Positions 28,735-38,534 of a stretch of DNA of 64,000 bases are shown in pieces. A program made the position numbers and the translations under genes. The notes beneath the pieces were generated by a model. That model did no database searches, was not told where the DNA came from, and saw only the letters and a list, made by a program, of their open reading frames with translations. The first letter of the stretch is position 1. Every line of letters begins with the position of its first letter. Source of the DNA: Roseibium sp. Lineage in GTDB: Bacteria; Pseudomonadota; Alphaproteobacteria; Rhizobiales; Stappiaceae. Location: NCBI GenBank assembly GCA_017643925.1, contig JAEPML010000014.1, forward strand, positions 62,001-126,000. Reading direction: 5' to 3'.

Positions 28735-28890
28735 GATGTCCGTCCCCTCCGATGGCGCCGGTCTCCGGCCCTTGCTCCAGCATGACCACGCTGCCCCGCA
28801 AGTCAATTGACACTTTCCCGAGAAATTTCAGCGGGGTGGCATACACTTTGGTAAAGGGTGTTCTATGTCCCGTCCGATGGGGTCAGACAG

Positions 28891-30198
28891 ATGACACAGG
28901 CAGATCTTCCGGCAAGGTCCGCGACACCGGATACAAGCCGCTTGCTGCGCGCCGAACAGCGCGGGCTGCGCCTGGCCATCCTGTGCCGCACTTTTGCCGT
29001 TGGCGCCGCCTTCCTCTGGGTGGGTGGTTCCTGGGTCGCTTTCGGGTTTTATCCGAACCCGCTGATCTTCGTCGTGCTGGGCGTGTTCACGGCGGTCGGT
29101 GTCGCCCATGCCTGTGTCATCGGCACCCGCTTCGATCGCTGGTGGATGAAATACGCCATCTACACGATCGACATACTCGGCATCTGCGCCACCTTCGCGT
29201 TTTTGCCGGTGATCCGTGAGGAGGCCGTGCCGCAGATCCTCGCCTTCAGGGCTTACGGCATCTATTACCTGTTTCCGATGGTTGCGATGGCGACGCTTTC
29301 CCTGTCCCCGCGTCTGGTGCTCTGGTCGGGCTGCGTTGCGGTCATTGGCTGGTTTGCCGCGTTCTTCATCGCTATTGCCGGCATGGAAACAACACTTTCC
29401 TGGTCGGATCTGCCACCGGGAGCAACGCGTGCCCAATATGAGGCGCTGTTCCTGTCTGCCGATTTCATCGGCCGGGGCAACCGGATCGAGGAAACGGGTT
29501 TCCTGATGATAGCGACCCTGATCCTGTCGCTCGGCGTGCTCAGGGCACGGCGCGTTTTCATGGCGCAGGTGCAGGCCCAGGCGGAACGCGAACAGATCGC
29601 CTCGACGCTTGGCCGCTATGTTCCCGAAGCGGTTGCCAAGCGGCTGATCGATGATCCCGAGGCCCTGACGCCGCAACAGCGCTATGCGGTGATCCTGGTG
29701 ATGGATATTTCCGGTTTCACTGCCTATTCGGCCGGGCGGGCACCAACGGAAGTGATCGAACATCTCAACGACTTCCTGTCCGGTTGCGCCGAAAAGGTCA
29801 GCCGACACAACGGGGTTGTGATCCAGTTCACCGGGGACGGGCTGATGGCGTCCTTCGGCACGCCGATCGAGAGCGCTGAGCCGGAGCAGGAGGCCATCGC
29901 GGCCTCACGGGCCCTGATGGCCCAGGCGGGCAAGGCCGGCTTTTCCATCCGCATCGGCCTCGCCGCCGGTCCGGTCGCCGCCGGCAGCATCGGCTCCTCG
30001 GACCGTCAGGCCTTCACCGTCTATGGCGACACGGTCAACCGCGCCGCGCGCCTGGAGGCCCATGCAAAGACCCTTGGCCGCACCTTGCTTCTGGACGGCT
30101 CCTTCGAAGACAAGCTCCAGGGACAACCGGTCGAGCGGCATGAACAGCAGACCCTCAGGGGGCTGAGCGAGCCGGTGACGGTTCTTGTTCTGGCGTAG
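28891..30198 (+). CDS. membrane-bound class III adenylate/guanylate cyclase
   Basis: 435 aa from the ATG at 28891 (GGGG eight bases upstream); a GTG 33 bases upstream is also possible. Five to six hydrophobic segments occupy roughly residues 30-200. A short coiled linker (AQAQAEREQIASTLGRYVPEAVAKRLI) follows, then a catalytic domain with VILVMDISGFTAYS and IQFTGDGLMASFG (two metal-binding Asp), and FTVYGDTVNRAARLE (transition-state Asn/Arg). It likely makes cAMP at the inner membrane. The linker sequence just before the domain resembles that of many alphaproteobacterial cyclases. No effector gene is adjacent. Confidence 0.88.
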   Translation: MTQADLPARSATPDTSRLLRAEQRGLRLAILCRTFAVGAAFLWVGGSWVAFGFYPNPLIFVVLGVFTAVGVAHACVIGTRFDRWWMKYAIYTIDILGICATFAFLPVIREEAVPQILAFRAYGIYYLFPMVAMATLSLSPRLVLWSGCVAVIGWFAAFFIAIAGMETTLSWSDLPPGATRAQYEALFLSADFIGRGNRIEETGFLMIATLILSLGVLRARRVFMAQVQAQAEREQIASTLGRYVPEAVAKRLIDDPEALTPQQRYAVILVMDISGFTAYSAGRAPTEVIEHLNDFLSGCAEKVSRHNGVVIQFTGDGLMASFGTPIESAEPEQEAIAASRALMAQAGKAGFSIRIGLAAGPVAAGSIGSSDRQAFTVYGDTVNRAARLEAHAKTLGRTLLLDGSFEDKLQGQPVERHEQQTLRGLSEPVTVLVLA

Positions 30199-31880: not shown

Positions 31881-34850
31881 CTATCTCCCCGGCCGCCCAC
31901 TCTTCTTCGGGCGTCCCCGACGGCGTTTTTCCTCCGCCGGATCCTCGTAGGACCCCGCGCCGATCTTGCCGCGCACGACGGGTTTGACCGGGTCGTCTGA
32001 TCCCAGCGGCACTTCGGTGCGGCCGATGGTCATTTCGTCGAGGGTGTTCTTGCGCACCTTGGCGCTCGGGGCCGGCAGGGCGTTCTTTTCCCTGGCGGCG
32101 CGGGCCTTGTCGCGCGCGGTTTCCCGCTTCTTGCCGCTTGCGCCTTCCTTGGTGCCGCCGGCGCCGAATTTCTTGGCGCCCTTGTAGCCGCCGGTTTTGC
32201 TGTCGACGTCGGACTGGCGCGCCATGGCGTCGTCGGCGACCGCCAGTTCGGTTTCCTGCAGGCGCTTGATCTCGTCGCGCAGGCGCGCGGCGGTCTCGAA
32301 GTCGAGATCGGCGGCGGCGTCGCGCATCTGTTTTTCCAGGTCCTCGATATGGGCCGCCAGATTGTGGCCGACCAGCGAGCCTTCCTCGGCGAAACCGGCA
32401 TCCACGGTGACGTGGTCCTGCTCGTAGACACTGTCGAGAATGTCGGCGATGTTGCGCTTGACGCTTTCCGGCGTGATGCCGTGTTCCTCGTTATAGGCGA
32501 GCTGCTTTTCGCGACGCCGGTTGGTTTCCGCGATCGCCCGTTCCATGGAACCGGTCATGTTGTCGGCATAGAGGATGACCTTGCCGTCCACGTTACGTGC
32601 CGCGCGGCCGATCGTCTGGATCAGCGAGGTTTCCGAGCGCAGGAACCCTTCCTTGTCCGCATCCAGAATGGCGACCAGCGCACATTCGGGAATGTCGAGC
32701 CCCTCGCGCAACAGGTTGATGCCGACCAGAACGTCGAAGGCACCGAGGCGCAGGTCGCGGATGATCTCGATCCGCTCCAGCGTGTCGATGTCGGAATGCA
32801 TGTAGCGCACGCGCACGCCGTTTTCATGGAGGTATTCGGTCAGATCCTCCGCCATGCGCTTGGTCAGCGTGGTTACCAGCGTGCGGTAGCCCTTGCTGGC
32901 AACTTCGCGGACTTCGCCGAGAAGATCGTCGACTTGGGACGAGGCCGGGCGGATGTCGATCACGGGATCGACGAGGCCGGTGGGGCGGATCACCTGCTCG
33001 GCGAAGACACCGCCGGACTGGTCCATCTCCCAGGAGCCTGGCGTTGCTGAAACCGCGACCGATTGCGGCCGCATGGCGTTCCATTCCTCGAAGCGCAGCG
33101 GTCGGTTGTCCATGCAGGAGGGCAGGCGGAAGCCGTATTCGGCCAGTGTCGCCTTGCGGCGGAAGTCGCCCCGGTACATGGCGCCGATCTGCGGGATCGT
33201 GACGTGGCTTTCGTCGGCGAAGACCAGCGTGTTGTCCGGCAGGTATTCGAACAGGGTGGGGGGCGGTTCACCGGGCTTGCGACCGGTGAGGTAGCGCGAA
33301 TAGTTCTCGATGCCCTGACAGGAGCCGGTGGCTTCCAGCATTTCCAGGTCGAACATGGTGCGCTGTTCCAGCCGCTGGGCCTCCAGCAGGCGGCCGTGAT
33401 TGTTCAGCTCTTCCAGCCGGTGCTTGAGCTCGGACTTGATCGACTTGATCGCCTGGTTCAGTGTCGGTTTCGGCGTCACATAGTGCGAGTTCGCGTAGAT
33501 CTTGACGCTTTTCAGCTCGCCCGACTTCTGTCCCGTCAGCGGGTCGAACTCGGTGATGTTCTCGATCTCGTCACCGAAGAGGGAAATGCGCCAGGCACGG
33601 TCCTCGTAGTGGGCCGGGAACAGTTCGATCGTGTCACCGCGCACCCGGAAGGTGCCGCGCTGGAAGGCCGCATCGTTGCGCTTGTATTGCAGGGCCACCA
33701 GGTCGGCGATCAGCTGGCGCTGGTCGATGCGCTCGCCGACCTCGATGGCGAAGGTCATCGCCGTATAGGTCTCGACCGAACCGATACCGTAGATGCAGGA
33801 GACCGAGGCAACGATGATGACATCGTCACGTTCCAGCAGCGCGCGCGTTGCCGAGTGGCGCATGCGGTCGATCTGCTCGTTGATCGAGCTTTCCTTCTCA
33901 ATATAGGTGTCGGTCCGCGGCACATAGGCTTCCGGCTGGTAGTAGTCGTAATAGGAAACGAAATACTCGACCGCATTGTCCGGAAAGAAGGACTTGAATT
34001 CGCCGTAGAGCTGGGCGGCCAGGGTCTTGTTCGGTGCCAGCACGAGTGCGGGGCGCTGGGTGCGCTGGATTACCTGTGCCATCGTGTAGGTCTTGCCCGA
34101 GCCGGTCACACCCAGCAGAACCTGGGTCTGTTCGCCGGTGTCGATGCCTTCCACCAGTTCGGCAATGGCGGTCGGCTGGTCGCCCTGCGGCTCGTAGTCG
34201 GACTTCAGGACAATCTCGACACCGCCCTCGGATTTCGGCGGGCGTTCGGGACGGTGCGGGATCCAGGCCTCGCCATTCTTGTGCAGCGGGTTGCCGGACT
34301 CGATCAGGGCCGACAGTGCCTCGACGGTTGCCGTCGCTCCCTGGTTGCCGGTCAGCTCACCGAACTTGCTTTCCTTCTTTTTCTTCTTGTTGTCCTTCTT
34401 GTGCTCTTTCAGCTTCTGCTCGAGCGCTTCGGCCTCTTCCAGCGTCATGTCGAGCCCGGCCACAGGGTTCAGGCCCCCGGCAGCCCGTTCGCGCACGCTG
34501 TCGGCCTTGCCGATCGAGGTGCCGCGCGCCGACTTGGTGATCTTTTCCTTCTTGGGAGCTGCTTTTCGTTTTGCGCTCGCGGACGTACGCTCACTGCGTT
34601 CACTGTCCTCCGCGGGGGCGGCCTGACCGGCCGGCGCGCGGTCACGCTTGCCTTCGCTTTGCTCCGGGACCTTTTTATCCTTGCCGGTGGTCTTTGAGAC
34701 AGGCTGTTCAGCTTCCTCGGCGATCTCGGCGGCCCAGTCGCTGATCGACCCGGACAGGGGCGTGCCGGAGAGGGACTTCTGCGGTGCTTCGCCGAAGCCG
34801 TCAGGAGATGTCGTGGTGTCGGAACCGGTTTTGGTGGGGCGCTTGCTCAT
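31881..34850 (-). CDS. uvrB: UvrABC excinuclease subunit B with long N-terminal extension
   Basis: UvrB verifies lesions and hands DNA to UvrC. Core features: [11 protein letters not shown]-loop (about 247-254), [17 protein letters not shown] (beta-hairpin clamp), [12 protein letters not shown], helicase motif V/VI ([24 protein letters not shown]) and a UVR helix pair ([30 protein letters not shown]) binding UvrC. The canonical protein is about 670 aa; this one is 989 aa. About 208 residues of Lys/Glu/Ser/Pro-rich low-complexity sequence precede the core and about 100 basic residues follow the UVR domain. Such extensions occur in rhizobial UvrB, but their function is unknown. Confidence 0.96.
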
Positions 34851-34954: not shown

Positions 34955-35120
34955 AGTCCCTGATCAGGCACGGCGACACTGACACAGTCGTTGGTGGAAC
35001 TTGAATGTAAAGCGCTTCATTTTCTGACCACGGGCGCGTTGGGCCGTTTGCCAAATTGCAAGTTGAACTTGTACGCGTATATGGTCTGATGGTGCCTTCA
35101 GGATCTGGAGAAAACGCGAC

Positions 35121-35975
35121 ATGACCCTCAACCGGCGACACGTGATGGGCCTCTCGGCAGCTGCATTTGGCGGATTGGTGATGCCAAGGATTCCGGCGCT
35201 GGCCCAGGAGCCTTCCTTGTCCGAAACGTTCCTCGATCATTTTTCTGCGCAGGGTTTCAAGGCCCTGGAACCGCTCAGCCTGCTGACGGATTTCGGTTTC
35301 AACGGTGGCTTGCGCTACGACGATACGCGTGCCGACTATCCCGACGGCCCGTCGGTTTGCGTGCAACCGTCCTGTCGGGTCGATGACATCGACAAGGCGG
35401 GCACACCGGGCGTGTTGGCGCTGTTCAACATCATGATGCTGAATTTCCCGGACGCGTCGTTGTCCGCGTCATCGGCGGAGCTGATGCTGGAATTCGCCAT
35501 CGAGCAAGTCGGGCTTGATCCAGCGAAAATTGTCTATGTCTCCACCGACCTGTTTGAACCCTATTTCAGCGAAAGTGCGCTGATGCAAAAGGGGCGTTTC
35601 ATACAACGGGAGCGCGGTGAAGCGATGACGAGCGGTGAGGGATCGGGTTATTTCGCACCGGCCGGTCATCCGCATACGCCGAGTTTTCCCACTGCAAGCG
35701 TTCACTATCCACTTGGTAATACAGGCTTGAACGACGCGAGTTTCCCCTTGCCGGATCATCTCGAAATCGGCGAGATCATTCTGGAAGACCGTCAGGCCGG
35801 TCGCCCCGGCCCCGTCGGCGGCGGATTTGGTCTGGAAAGACTGGCGCTCGCCACTGGGAGACCTGTGCCCGACTTCACCGAGAGCCGGGTCGCATTCCTG
35901 AATCTGGCGCGGCAGGAAGCGGAACAGGCAGGCCGAAAACTTCCGGCAGGCTACGAAGCCTATGCGACGTTCTAG
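35121..35975 (+). CDS. exported protein resembling the alanyl-tRNA synthetase catalytic core
   Basis: 284 aa. The N-terminus is a twin-arginine-like signal peptide (NRRHVMGLSAAAFGGLV, cleavage near ALA-QE, residue 28). The mature part aligns by eye with the class II AlaRS core: SETFLDHFSAQGFKALEPLSL with the AlaRS start (AFLDFFHSKGH...), PSCRVDDIDKAGTPGVLALF plus NIMMLNF (84-109) with motif 2, an AELMLEFAIEQVGLDPAKIVYV helix-strand, and GGGFGLERLALATG (233-246) with motif 3. Motif 2 and 3 arginines appear kept. All tRNA-binding, editing and dimer domains are absent (AlaRS is about 875 aa). I do not know its function; adenylation of a small substrate in the periplasm is unlikely without ATP, so ligand binding is possible. 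Confidence 0.6.
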   Translation: MTLNRRHVMGLSAAAFGGLVMPRIPALAQEPSLSETFLDHFSAQGFKALEPLSLLTDFGFNGGLRYDDTRADYPDGPSVCVQPSCRVDDIDKAGTPGVLALFNIMMLNFPDASLSASSAELMLEFAIEQVGLDPAKIVYVSTDLFEPYFSESALMQKGRFIQRERGEAMTSGEGSGYFAPAGHPHTPSFPTASVHYPLGNTGLNDASFPLPDHLEIGEIILEDRQAGRPGPVGGGFGLERLALATGRPVPDFTESRVAFLNLARQEAEQAGRKLPAGYEAYATF

Positions 35976-35990
35976 CCACCGGGCGTCTGA

Positions 35991-37505
35991 TCACTCCCCC
36001 CTCGGAAACCGCTGACCTTCCTCGACCTCGTTCAGGTCCATGTGATTGCGCATGTAGCGTTCCGAGGCCTTTTGCAGGGGTTGGTAGTCCCAGGGGAAAT
36101 AGGCACCGTTTCTGAGGGCCTCGTAGACGATCCAGCGACGCGCCTGGGACTGGCGGACTTCCGCATCGAAAGCAGACATGTCCCAGCGCACGCGGACCGC
36201 GTCTGCAAAGCGGGAGCAGGTGTCCGCATGCGTGGGGTCGGTTGCCAGGTTCGTAAGCTCGTAAGGGTCGTCAGCCAGGTTGAAAAGCTGGGGCGGGTCA
36301 AGCTCGCAATGGATGTATTTCAGGTCGCCTTCCCGGATCCCGACCAATGGTGCGTAGGAGGCTTCGGCTGCATATTCCATCAGCACGGGGGAGGTTCGCT
36401 CACTGCCGTTCGCCAGCGGGACAAGGCTTTCCCCATCCGTCCAGGGCATGATTTCGCTCATGTCGATGCCGGCCAGATCACACACGGTGGGCAGCACGTC
36501 CAGCGTGCTGACGGGCGCCTTTATCCGGGTCGCCGCCAGGTCCTTGTCGGCGATCATCAGGGGCACACGGGAAGAGCCCTCGAAGAAAGTCATCTTGAAC
36601 CAGAGACCGCGCTCGCCGAGCATGTCGCCATGGTCGGATACGAACAGGATGGTTGTGTCTTCAGCAAGGTCCATTGCCTCAAGCGCATGCAGGATCTCGC
36701 CGATCTTGTCGTCCAGGTAGCTGATGTTTGCAAAATAGGCGCGGCGGGAGCGGCGGATGTCTTCGTCGGTGATGTTGAAACTGCGCCAGTCATTGGCGTC
36801 GAAGATACGTTTTGAGTGCGGGTCATGGTCTGCGTAGGCCATGGCCGTGACGTCGGGCAACAGGTGGTCGCAGTCCTCATATAGATCCCAATATTGTTTG
36901 CGCGCCACATAGGGATCATGCGGGTGGGTGAAGCTTACGGTCAGGCAGAATGGCCGGTCATATTTGCCACGGCCATAGTCGTAGATCTTGCGCACGGCCT
37001 GGAAAGCGACGTCGTCGTCATATTCCATCTGGTTGGAAATCTCGGCGACGCCTGCGCCGGTGACCGAACCCATGTTGTGATACCACCAGTCAATGCGTTC
37101 ACCGGGCTTGCGATAGTCCGGCGTCCAGCCGAAATCTGCCGGGTAAATGTCGGTGGTCAGGCGCTCTTCAAAACCGTGCATCTGGTCAGGGCCGACAAAA
37201 TGCATCTTGCCGGACAGGCAGGTCGTGTAGCCGGCTCGGCGCAAATGATGGGCATAGGTCGGGATATCGGAGGCGAATTCGGCCGCGTTGTCATAGACGC
37301 CGGTGCGACGGGGCAGTTGGCCAGACATGAAGCTTGCCCGCCCCGGCGCGCATAATGGCGATGCGGTATAGGTATTCTCGAAACGAACAGACCGGGACGC
37401 CAGCTTCTTGAGGTGCGGTGCGTGCAGGAAGTCGGCCGGACCATCGGGGAAAAGCGTCCCGTTCAACTGGTCAACCATCAGGATCAGGATGTTTTTTCGG
37501 TCCAT
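35991..37505 (-). CDS. betC: choline-sulfatase
   Basis: 504 aa, family length. Hydrolyses choline-O-sulfate to choline and sulfate, feeding glycine betaine synthesis. NILILMVDQLNG starts the alkaline-phosphatase-like fold with the Asp metal ligand. SPLCAPGRASFMSG holds the C-x-P-x-R site (Cys52) converted to formylglycine. THPHDPYVARKQYWDLY and FVSDHGDMLGERGLWFKMTFFEGSSRVPL are the metal and substrate segments typical of choline sulfatase, and the C-terminal tail (DYQPLQKASERYMRNHMDL) is BetC-specific. No betA/B/I genes are adjacent. A BetI-like operator lies 64 bases upstream. Confidence 0.93.
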   Translation of the reverse strand: MDRKNILILMVDQLNGTLFPDGPADFLHAPHLKKLASRSVRFENTYTASPLCAPGRASFMSGQLPRRTGVYDNAAEFASDIPTYAHHLRRAGYTTCLSGKMHFVGPDQMHGFEERLTTDIYPADFGWTPDYRKPGERIDWWYHNMGSVTGAGVAEISNQMEYDDDVAFQAVRKIYDYGRGKYDRPFCLTVSFTHPHDPYVARKQYWDLYEDCDHLLPDVTAMAYADHDPHSKRIFDANDWRSFNITDEDIRRSRRAYFANISYLDDKIGEILHALEAMDLAEDTTILFVSDHGDMLGERGLWFKMTFFEGSSRVPLMIADKDLAATRIKAPVSTLDVLPTVCDLAGIDMSEIMPWTDGESLVPLANGSERTSPVLMEYAAEASYAPLVGIREGDLKYIHCELDPPQLFNLADDPYELTNLATDPTHADTCSRFADAVRVRWDMSAFDAEVRQSQARRWIVYEALRNGAYFPWDYQPLQKASERYMRNHMDLNEVEEGQRFPRGE

Positions 37506-37588: not shown

Positions 37589-37661
37589 AATCGTCGCGCC
37601 GTTGTTCCCTGCCGCCAGGTTTTCGATCCGGGATGCGGAATGCGACCCTTGCAGAAAGTGC

Positions 37662-37692
37662 TTGACCTGGAGTGCACTCCAGCCTTTAGGGA
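37662..37692 (+). promoter_or_regulatory. MerR-type promoter with operator in a 19-bp spacer
   Basis: TTGACC (-35, 37662-37667), then a spacer of 19 bases, then TAGGGA (-10, 37687-37692). Inside is a perfect 16-bp palindrome CTGGAGTGCACTCCAG (37667-37682). An overlong spacer filled by a dyad is the hallmark of promoters untwisted by MerR-family activators. The controlled start codon is 28 bases downstream. Confidence 0.75.
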
Positions 37693-37720
37693 AGACAAAT
37701 CGTTCCGTTCGGAGACTGAC

Positions 37721-38203
37721 ATGCGGATTGGAGATCTTGCCCGAATATCGGGGCTTTCGACCGACACCTTGCGCTACTATGAGAAGATCGGGCTGTTGCC
37801 GCGCGCCTTGCGCGATGCGGGTGGGCGGCGCATCTACGATGAGACCATTCTCAGGTGGATTGATTTTCTCGGACGGCTCAAATCGACGGGCATGGGCATC
37901 AATGATCGCTTGCGCTACGCGCAATTGCGCTCCCGTGGCAGTGCGTCGCTGACGTCTCGCCGCCAGATGCTCGAGGCCCATCGCCAAAAGGTTGCCGATG
38001 ACGTCGACAAGCTGACCGAGATGCTTGGCGTTCTGGACGAAAAAATCGATCTCTACAGAAGGATGGAAGCGGGAGACCCCGTTGATCCGTCTTTCGAAAA
38101 CTGCGCCCGGACCGAACACGGAGCGCACCAAGACCCGAGGGAACCTCCCCATGAGCGAAGCGCTCGAACGCGGACGCAAGCTGACGCAAACACTCAATCC
38201 TGA
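37721..38203 (+). CDS. MerR family transcriptional regulator
   Basis: 160 aa. MRIGDLARISGLSTDTLRYYEKIGLL is the MerR winged helix-turn-helix, followed by the R-x-Y wing (GGRRIYDET) and a long dimerisation helix (MLEAHRQKVADDVDKLTEMLGVLDEKIDLYRR). No metal Cys set is visible, so the effector is not an obvious metal. The promoter at 37662 suggests autoregulation. The final 30 or so residues (REPPHERSARTRTQADANTQS) read through the start of the next gene in another frame and look like low-value sequence; the functional protein probably ends near FENC. Confidence 0.87.
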   Translation: MRIGDLARISGLSTDTLRYYEKIGLLPRALRDAGGRRIYDETILRWIDFLGRLKSTGMGINDRLRYAQLRSRGSASLTSRRQMLEAHRQKVADDVDKLTEMLGVLDEKIDLYRRMEAGDPVDPSFENCARTEHGAHQDPREPPHERSARTRTQADANTQS

Positions 38204-38534
38204 CCTGGAGGCCATTCTCAGCGAGCGTTACGACACGCTGTTACCGGAGTTTTCCGAAAGTCTGATCGAATGGGCCTATGGTCGGCATTACGCCCGCCCC
38301 GGCCTGGACATGAAGACCCGGCAGTTATGTACGATCGCGGCACTTGCCGTGCTCGGCGGCCAAACCGCTCCGCAGCTCAAGATCAATATCGAACACAGCC
38401 TCGCGGCCGGAGCCACTCGGCAGGAAGTCGTCGAAGCGATCTGGCAGATGGCCGTCTATGGCGGGCTGCCAGCAGCGATCAACGGGCTGAATGCCGCGCG
38501 AGAGGTTTTCGAAATCCTGGATCGGCAAGCCTAG
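38151..38534 (+). CDS. carboxymuconolactone decarboxylase family protein
   Basis: 127 aa all-helical protein. LIEWAYGRHYARPGLDMKTRQLCTIAALAVLGGQTAPQLKINIEHSLAAGATRQEVVEAIWQMAVYGGLPAAINGLNAARE is the CMD domain: E-x-W-x-x-x-Y, then R-x-L-x-T-I-A and H-S-A-x-x-x-G-A-T-x-x-E. It lacks the Cys-x-x-Cys of AhpD peroxidases, so it fits gamma-carboxymuconolactone-type enzymes or proteins of unknown substrate. It overlaps the MerR gene by 53 bases, in a different frame, and is therefore controlled with it. Confidence 0.87.
   Translation: MSEALERGRKLTQTLNPDLEAILSERYDTLLPEFSESLIEWAYGRHYARPGLDMKTRQLCTIAALAVLGGQTAPQLKINIEHSLAAGATRQEVVEAIWQMAVYGGLPAAINGLNAAREVFEILDRQA

Follow-up and report, generated by a model that had tools for sequence, protein, structure and literature searches.

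The window analysed here is a 64,000-nucleotide stretch of a Roseibium sp. contig. It carries an open reading frame of 284 amino acids situated between uvrB and the choline sulfatase gene betC. The frame is convergent with betC, and the stop codons of the two genes are 15 bases apart. Its N-terminal sequence resembles a twin-arginine (Tat) signal peptide and the remainder resembles the catalytic core of alanyl-tRNA synthetase (AlaRS). The features of the locus, in window coordinates, are as follows.

31881–34850, minus strand: uvrB, flanking gene on the side opposite to betC (PF17757, PF12344 and others)
35107–35110, plus strand: GGAG, a Shine-Dalgarno-like site 10 bases 5′ of the ATG, read from the sequence
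35121–35975, plus strand: coding region of the AlaRS-core-like protein with putative Tat leader; ATG start, 284 aa, substitution ratios pointing to purifying selection
35121–35204, plus strand: putative twin-arginine leader, residues 1–28 (Arg-Arg; PF10518 matched in some homologues; TatC encoded in the genome)
35205–35972, plus strand: mature domain, residues 29–284, AlaRS catalytic-core-like by profile rank tests
35217–35255, plus strand: residues 33–45, a helix like the AlaRS motif-1 helix (FLDHFSAQG against FLDYF...GH; profile alignments and MAFFT)
35301–35312, plus strand: residues 61–64, NGGL, like the AlaRS NAGM (alignments to AlaRS loci L048, L050 and L051)
35355–35450, plus strand: predicted motif 2, residues 79–110, with R86, D89 and F102 (alignments; residue roles from the accessible parts of PMC12143591 and PMC4938167)
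35811–35861, plus strand: predicted motif 3, residues 231–247, with R240, and G233 at the position of an AlaRS Asp (MAFFT alignment)
35991–37505, minus strand: choline sulfatase gene betC, convergent neighbour (TIGR03417, E-value = 5.5e-268)

The AlaRS-like gene is single-copy in its own genome (protein search, E ≤ 1), and an ordinary alaS is found there at a separate site (G000:C130). The mature part of the protein is about 255 residues long. The preliminary description of this DNA had reported that all other AlaRS domains are missing, and this is borne out by the reading frame, which ends 44 residues past the motif-3 Arg.

A protein search shows the gene in 12 of the 87 genomes of the family, all 12 belonging to the genus of the window. 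Profile searches add, besides the own genome, five carriers among 397 genomes of the order and one among 385 genomes of the class; in 398 genomes of the phylum no match other than the own gene was judged a true homologue. In these order, class and phylum searches at most six first-look candidates were scored per genome, thus distant members may have been missed. The closest named relatives, which are the genes listed here as L002 and L003, come from Labrenzia alba and from a Roseibium MAG, and the lowest identity of a homologue to the window protein is 24%. Searches of plasmid sequences and of viral sequences gave no relative of the protein. There are 18 homologues in total; the family alignment consists of 17, L011 being left out as a near-copy of L010, and counts out of 17 refer to this alignment. 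For the mature part, five pairs give dN/dS values of 0.09, 0.11, 0.07, 0.24 and 0.13, with dS reaching 1.9 in the first of these and 1.7 in the fifth; a sixth pair (L016/L017) gives 0.49 and a seventh is saturated. By these ratios the mature part is under purifying selection. The gene, judged from its homologues, is a real one, patchy in distribution and under selection.

The leader of the window protein, MTLNRRHVMGLSAAAFGGLVMPRIPALA followed by Q, combines a twin Arg with a stretch of weak hydrophobicity and an A-x-A site, with likely cleavage after ALA as read by eye. The Arg pair is present in 17/17 aligned members and in L011, that is in 18/18 homologues, and is retained even in the homologue at 24% identity. 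The Pfam TAT_signal model (PF10518) matches seven of the 17 members at E ≤ 1 (best E-value = 3.7e-5); the window protein itself gives no match to it at this threshold. The NCBIfam TAT models give weaker matches than the Pfam model (best E-value = 0.0066), with TAT_signal_seq matching six of 17 members at E ≤ 10 (best 0.012). Mean hydropathies over 17 residues of the leaders are 0.8–1.7, and the leaders end mostly in A-x-A by eye. In 12/17 members another 17-residue stretch equals or exceeds the leader in hydrophobicity, therefore hydropathy does not single out the leader. A lipobox Cys was looked for by eye in the leaders and none was seen. The host genome encodes TatC. The features of a Tat substrate are all found, namely the twin Arg, a stretch of moderate hydrophobicity, the A-x-A site and Tat machinery in the host. 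The Tat-type signal peptide claimed in the preliminary description is upheld by the conserved Arg pair, the TAT_signal matches and the presence of TatC, and the homologues without a signal peptide that the same description had named as counter-evidence did not appear. The AlaRS-like protein is probably exported via Tat, as far as the sequences indicate.

Single matches of the window protein to AlaRS are sub-threshold. The only NCBIfam match is to the archaeal AlaRS model TIGR03683 (E-value = 0.098, 10.8 bits against a cut-off of 744.7), and the only PDB sequence match at E ≤ 1 is to AlaRS 2zze (E-value = 0.7); the two cover nearly one stretch. At E ≤ 10 the window protein matches no Pfam family, and no synthetase family, PF01411 included, is matched by any of the 17 members. 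Weak Pfam matches to BLH_phosphatase (0.13), CbtA_toxin (0.3) and FAD-SLDH (0.48), in one member each, were taken as noise. A PDB search with the family-alignment profile (E ≤ 10) shows no AlaRS among the eight sequences listed. These are two glycosyl hydrolases aligned in the leader region (best E-value = 0.23), a competence protein (0.58), a polyketide synthase, and four phosphoseryl-tRNA synthetase chains matched over the motif-3 region (approximately 1.2).

The 17-member profile, run in six frames over 398 genomes, yields four foreign matches at E ≤ 0.01. Three of them are AlaRS N-termini, with E-values of 4.4e-4, 0.0067 and 0.0092; these values are per genome, and about four chance matches are expected across the 398 genomes. 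Kinship to AlaRS gains weight because three of the four belong to one enzyme and are aligned in register, the aligned region starting at the motif-1 helix, passing NAGM and motif 2 and reaching LDPxRL. Motif 3 forms a separate second stretch in the three, which by itself earns no score (−2.8 to 0 bits). The fourth match (L049) was set aside; it covers 41 profile positions, has an internal stop and displays no AlaRS frame.

A profile of the mature part only was ranked against 334 proteins. AlaRS sequences occupy 22 of the 23 top ranks and E. coli HisRS the remaining one; the best-placed of the 260 decoys stands at rank 24. The AlaRS sequences are mutually related, hence ranks and no Mann-Whitney values are taken from this test. 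Its top three AlaRS are those fetched by the profile itself, and both rank tests were repeated without them; AlaRS then holds 19 of the 20 top ranks and the first decoy is 21st. In the hhalign comparison with 96 profiles, AlaRS is first with a score of 30.4 (P = 0.0014) over 208 columns running through motifs 1–3, and GlyRS-alpha is second with 27.6; the best of the remaining 94 scores 23.0. Of the reversed controls, AlaRS scores 18.9 (5th) and GlyRS-alpha is 32nd. Without the three profile-fetched sequences AlaRS scores 28.4 (P = 0.003). Sixty column-shuffled AlaRS profiles give a mean of 15.1 (sd 2.9) and a maximum of 27.4, which is close to the real 28.4, and the maximum among 60 column shuffles of GlyRS-alpha is 25.6 against its real 27.6. 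The HH-suite probability for AlaRS is 17.3%, or 10.5% without the three sequences. A shallow AlaRS set gives 2.9%, a score of 23.9 and P = 0.016, and the test of the two subclass-IId enzymes, AlaRS and GlyRS-alpha, gives 7.5–17%. In reading these scores, the decoy profiles are shallower than the AlaRS profile and some decoys are mechanical ORFs. The AlaRS sequences number 44 in the first hhalign test and 41 in the repeat, nine in the MAFFT alignment, and 10 of the 12 fetched in a further alignment (A4). For GlyRS-alpha 30 loci were fetched, of which 21 were parsed for the 334-protein ranking (one or more of them from a wrong start), 19 for hhalign and 21 for its repeat.

Thus the AlaRS-like motifs which the preliminary description had aligned by eye recur at the same places in the profile alignments; by the rank tests they stand above chance, each single match being weak. 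From these comparisons the AlaRS-type relation of the mature domain is above chance, and motifs 1–3 follow one another in the right order. The parent may be AlaRS, GlyRS-alpha or a common ancestor of the two, and we lean to AlaRS because its match extends through motif 3. We infer a class II fold for the mature domain. AlphaFold models from three sequences (the window protein, L013 and L014) have pLDDT values of 37.2 and 40.2, and Foldseek with the two low-pLDDT models gives no match at E ≤ 0.001 (best E-values 0.38 and 0.29). The AlaRS fragment 1riq is second with one of these models (E-value = 0.74) and 41st with the other, for which chorismate mutase is the top match; neither Foldseek result is counted as support.

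The acidic residue of motif 2, Asp or Glu, touches adenine. In AlaRS, according to the accessible text of PMC12143591, the adenine is sandwiched by the Phe of motif 2 and the Arg of motif 3, the Arg of motif 2 contacts the alpha-phosphate, and Asp235 of the E. coli enzyme binds alanine by its amino group. Common to AlaRS and bacterial GlyRS are an insertion that follows the motif-2 Arg, Asp in place of Glu, and an absolutely conserved Trp (accessible part of PMC4938167). A MAFFT alignment to nine AlaRS, of which L050 is mis-trimmed at the start and L072 and L052 at the end, places F102 at the stacking Phe, R240 at the motif-3 Arg, R86 at the motif-2 Arg, D89 at the subclass-IId Asp and G233 at the position of the amino-group Asp. 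F102, D89 and R240 are each found in 17/17 members of the family alignment and R86 in 16, with Lys once. R86-x-x-D89 corresponds to the Arg-x-x-Asp of subclass IId; its spacing after QP is like that of archaeal AlaRS (QPxxRxxD) and of GlyRS-alpha (QPSRRPTD). At the G233 column no member (0/17) carries Asp, and Gly, Ala, Val or others are found instead. The Asn of the AlaRS EIWN is replaced by Glu (E218, 16/17; Asp once). The IId Trp is present in 0/17 at the aligned column, which falls in a GSGY/F loop where the alignment is uncertain, and 13 of the 17 members show no Trp after residue 30. Further invariant residues are N61, G63, Q82, T142, R163, G174, G176 and Y196. By this alignment the nucleotide half of the pocket appears kept and the amino-acid half rebuilt, and the kept Arg and Phe may be structural.

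Two Cys residues flank VQPS (residues 80–85, window 35358–35375) immediately ahead of the motif-2 Arg in seven of the 17 members. The pair, which is not kept in the other members, might form a disulfide beside the pocket if the protein is exported.

Compared with AlaRS (PF01411, TIGR03683), the family shows the same order of elements, i.e. motif-1 helix, NxG, motif-2 Arg then Asp, LDPxRL, EI strand and GLER. It keeps the ATP residues in a protein of predicted exported type, with the motif-2 spacing of the archaeal enzyme. However it has a Tat leader, lacks the tRNA-recognition, editing and C-Ala domains as well as the amino-group Asp and the Trp, and stays below the family cut-off for a functional AlaRS. 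GlyRS-alpha (PF02091), the second-best profile and close to AlaRS in score, is similarly a lone catalytic domain of about 300 aa with a QPSRRPTD motif 2, but its match covers only 92 columns of the N-terminal part, and the family differs from it in lacking the Trp and the amino-group Glu and in its predicted export. HisZ, AsnA and EpmA are likewise class II cores that serve new purposes; with the mature-only profile E. coli EpmA comes 32nd among the 334 proteins, below most AlaRS. These three are cytosolic and, to our knowledge, so are all known synthetase paralogues. A search of the open PMC literature gave no exported class II synthetase-fold or AlaRS-like protein among the matches listed, in agreement with the earlier statement that no AlaRS relative with a signal peptide is known.

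Two further AlaRS relatives are compared by description only. AcmF is a truncated AlaRS-like enzyme of ascamycin biosynthesis which uses Ala-tRNA (accessible part of PMC12945691). It is similar to the present family in being truncated, outside translation and changed in its active-site residues. However it keeps the tRNA-recognition domain and is said to have lost most ATP-binding residues, which is nearly the reverse pattern, and the accessible text mentions no signal peptide (PMC12945691). AlaRS paralogues also include amino acid:carrier protein ligases, which use a new acceptor (Table 1 of PMC9437257); no export is mentioned for these in the accessible part of that source.

The preliminary description had stressed that the gene faces the choline sulfatase gene. 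This arrangement is constant within the genus, where all 12 carriers have a convergent choline sulfatase gene at most 3,739 bases away and the gap between the matches is at most 50 bases in eight. Choline sulfatase is found in 36 of the 45 genus genomes searched, and 24 of these 36 lack the AlaRS-like gene; 12/12 against 36/45 gives P = 0.044, the genomes being related. The linkage does not extend beyond the genus. In all six loci outside it (4.2–18 kb, two being contigs of 4.2 and 10.7 kb) tblastn at E ≤ 1e-3 shows no choline sulfatase relative, and the same search recovers choline sulfatase in both genus loci included as a control. The absence rests on tblastn because in L036 an open reading frame on the opposite strand hid the choline sulfatase from the neighbour annotation. 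This annotation consists of 29 chosen proteins, and among them there is no partner common to loci within and outside the genus. Neighbours outside the genus are DUF922 and LysR genes in L042 and L043, oxidase subunits, DsbB and MFS genes in L044 and L045, and an ABC transporter ATPase and a DHDPS-family gene in L047 and L021. Within the genus the interval near the AlaRS-like gene varies, with M15 peptidase-like, GGDEF, HNH and CHAP genes. The adjacency to choline sulfatase thus appears to be an inherited position, a functional tie being possible.

Other open reading frames are found in these surroundings. About 5 kb off (window 28858–30198, plus strand) lies the gene of a 446-aa protein that carries a class III adenylate/guanylate cyclase domain. 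A MerR-type regulator frame (37640–38203) overlaps a carboxymuconolactone-decarboxylase-family frame (38025–38534) on the plus strand at window 37640–38534, the bounds being those of the longest open reading frames; a MerR gene is also found past the choline sulfatase in L035. A 342-aa protein with no Pfam match adjoins a Peptidase M15-domain protein in L038 (4058–6829) and likewise in L037, L040 and L041, and in these four loci the pair lies between uvrB and the AlaRS-like gene. Four genus carriers (G063, G064, G065 and G067) show three choline-sulfatase-family matches each.

The explanation we prefer, at a probability of roughly 0.47, is that the protein is a Tat-exported single domain derived from AlaRS (class II, subclass IId) which binds an adenine nucleotide or adenylate. 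It would not be a tRNA synthetase, because it lacks the Asp that binds alanine as well as the domains for tRNA binding and editing. Export, fold, nucleotide binding and a role as receptor or carrier are all what we infer from sequence. The catalytic core of an AlaRS-type synthetase would have lost those domains and that Asp and would have retained the residues gripping the adenine ring and the alpha-phosphate. Tat would export the folded domain with or without bound nucleotide. Tat transports folded proteins, therefore the ligand could be loaded ahead of export; it may otherwise be acquired in the periplasm. Outside the cytoplasm the domain would act as receptor or carrier of an adenine nucleotide or adenylate-like ligand. 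A more specific form, in which the protein binds ATP or an acyl-adenylate in the cytoplasm, passes folded through Tat together with it and uses it outside, as a one-shot acyl donor to an envelope target or as a nucleotide-loaded sensor, seems rather unlikely.

A doubtful but possible alternative is that the pocket of the exported AlaRS-derived fold holds a non-nucleotide ligand, e.g. a small cationic metabolite, with Arg, Phe and Asp kept for other contacts. The periplasm is expected to be poor in ATP, and the amino-acid side is rebuilt, with the Asp lost, the EIWN Asn changed to E218 and no Trp at its column. However, 16–17 of the 17 members retain the IId Asp and the three residues that contact the nucleotide in AlaRS. 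With the ATP residues kept and the alanine Asp gone, a nucleotide-like ligand is therefore the better guess. The repurposed exported synthetase core proposed in the preliminary description thus stands as to the AlaRS-like core and the leader, but its phrase "without ATP access" overlooks the ATP-anchoring residues, which rank among the best conserved of the family. These residues would also suit a cytoplasmic or inner-face ATP-dependent ligase, its leader serving as a membrane anchor or being little used. Such a location would be that of the cytosolic paralogues named above, and no export is mentioned for synthetase paralogues in the accessible parts of PMC12945691, PMC9437257 and PMC7373986. 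This is improbable, however, for a protein whose Arg pair is invariant and kept at 24% identity, with mostly A-x-A ends, Tat signal matches in seven members and TatC in the host.

That the family is not class II at all, i.e. an exported family of other origin whose motif matches arose by chance, would account for the lack of a Pfam synthetase match, the weak single E-values, the HH probability of 10–17% and the poor AlphaFold models. The decoy, reversed and column-shuffled tests nevertheless place both IId enzymes first and second, AlaRS is at the top among the 334 proteins, and motifs 1, 2 and 3 occur in order, which leaves chance resemblance a decidedly unlikely explanation. Least credible is a part in the use of choline sulfate or glycine betaine, linked to the adjoining choline sulfatase. 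The convergent gene lies within 3.8 kb in every genus carrier, but two-thirds of the choline-sulfatase genomes of the genus do without the AlaRS-like gene, the outside loci show no such neighbour, convergent genes cannot share a promoter, and the P value above comes from related genomes.

It is well known that new functions arise from synthetase paralogues. Truncated AlaRS-like enzymes such as AcmF and carrier-protein AlaRS paralogues are already known; new here are the predicted Tat leader and the combination of kept nucleotide residues with a lost alanine Asp. With this combination one can readily test whether use or reuse of an ATP site is possible outside the cytoplasm. If the adenylate-export reading is true, the active site of a translation enzyme would be in extracytoplasmic use. 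If this conserved family does consist of exported AlaRS-type cores, the class II synthetase fold would have a new location.
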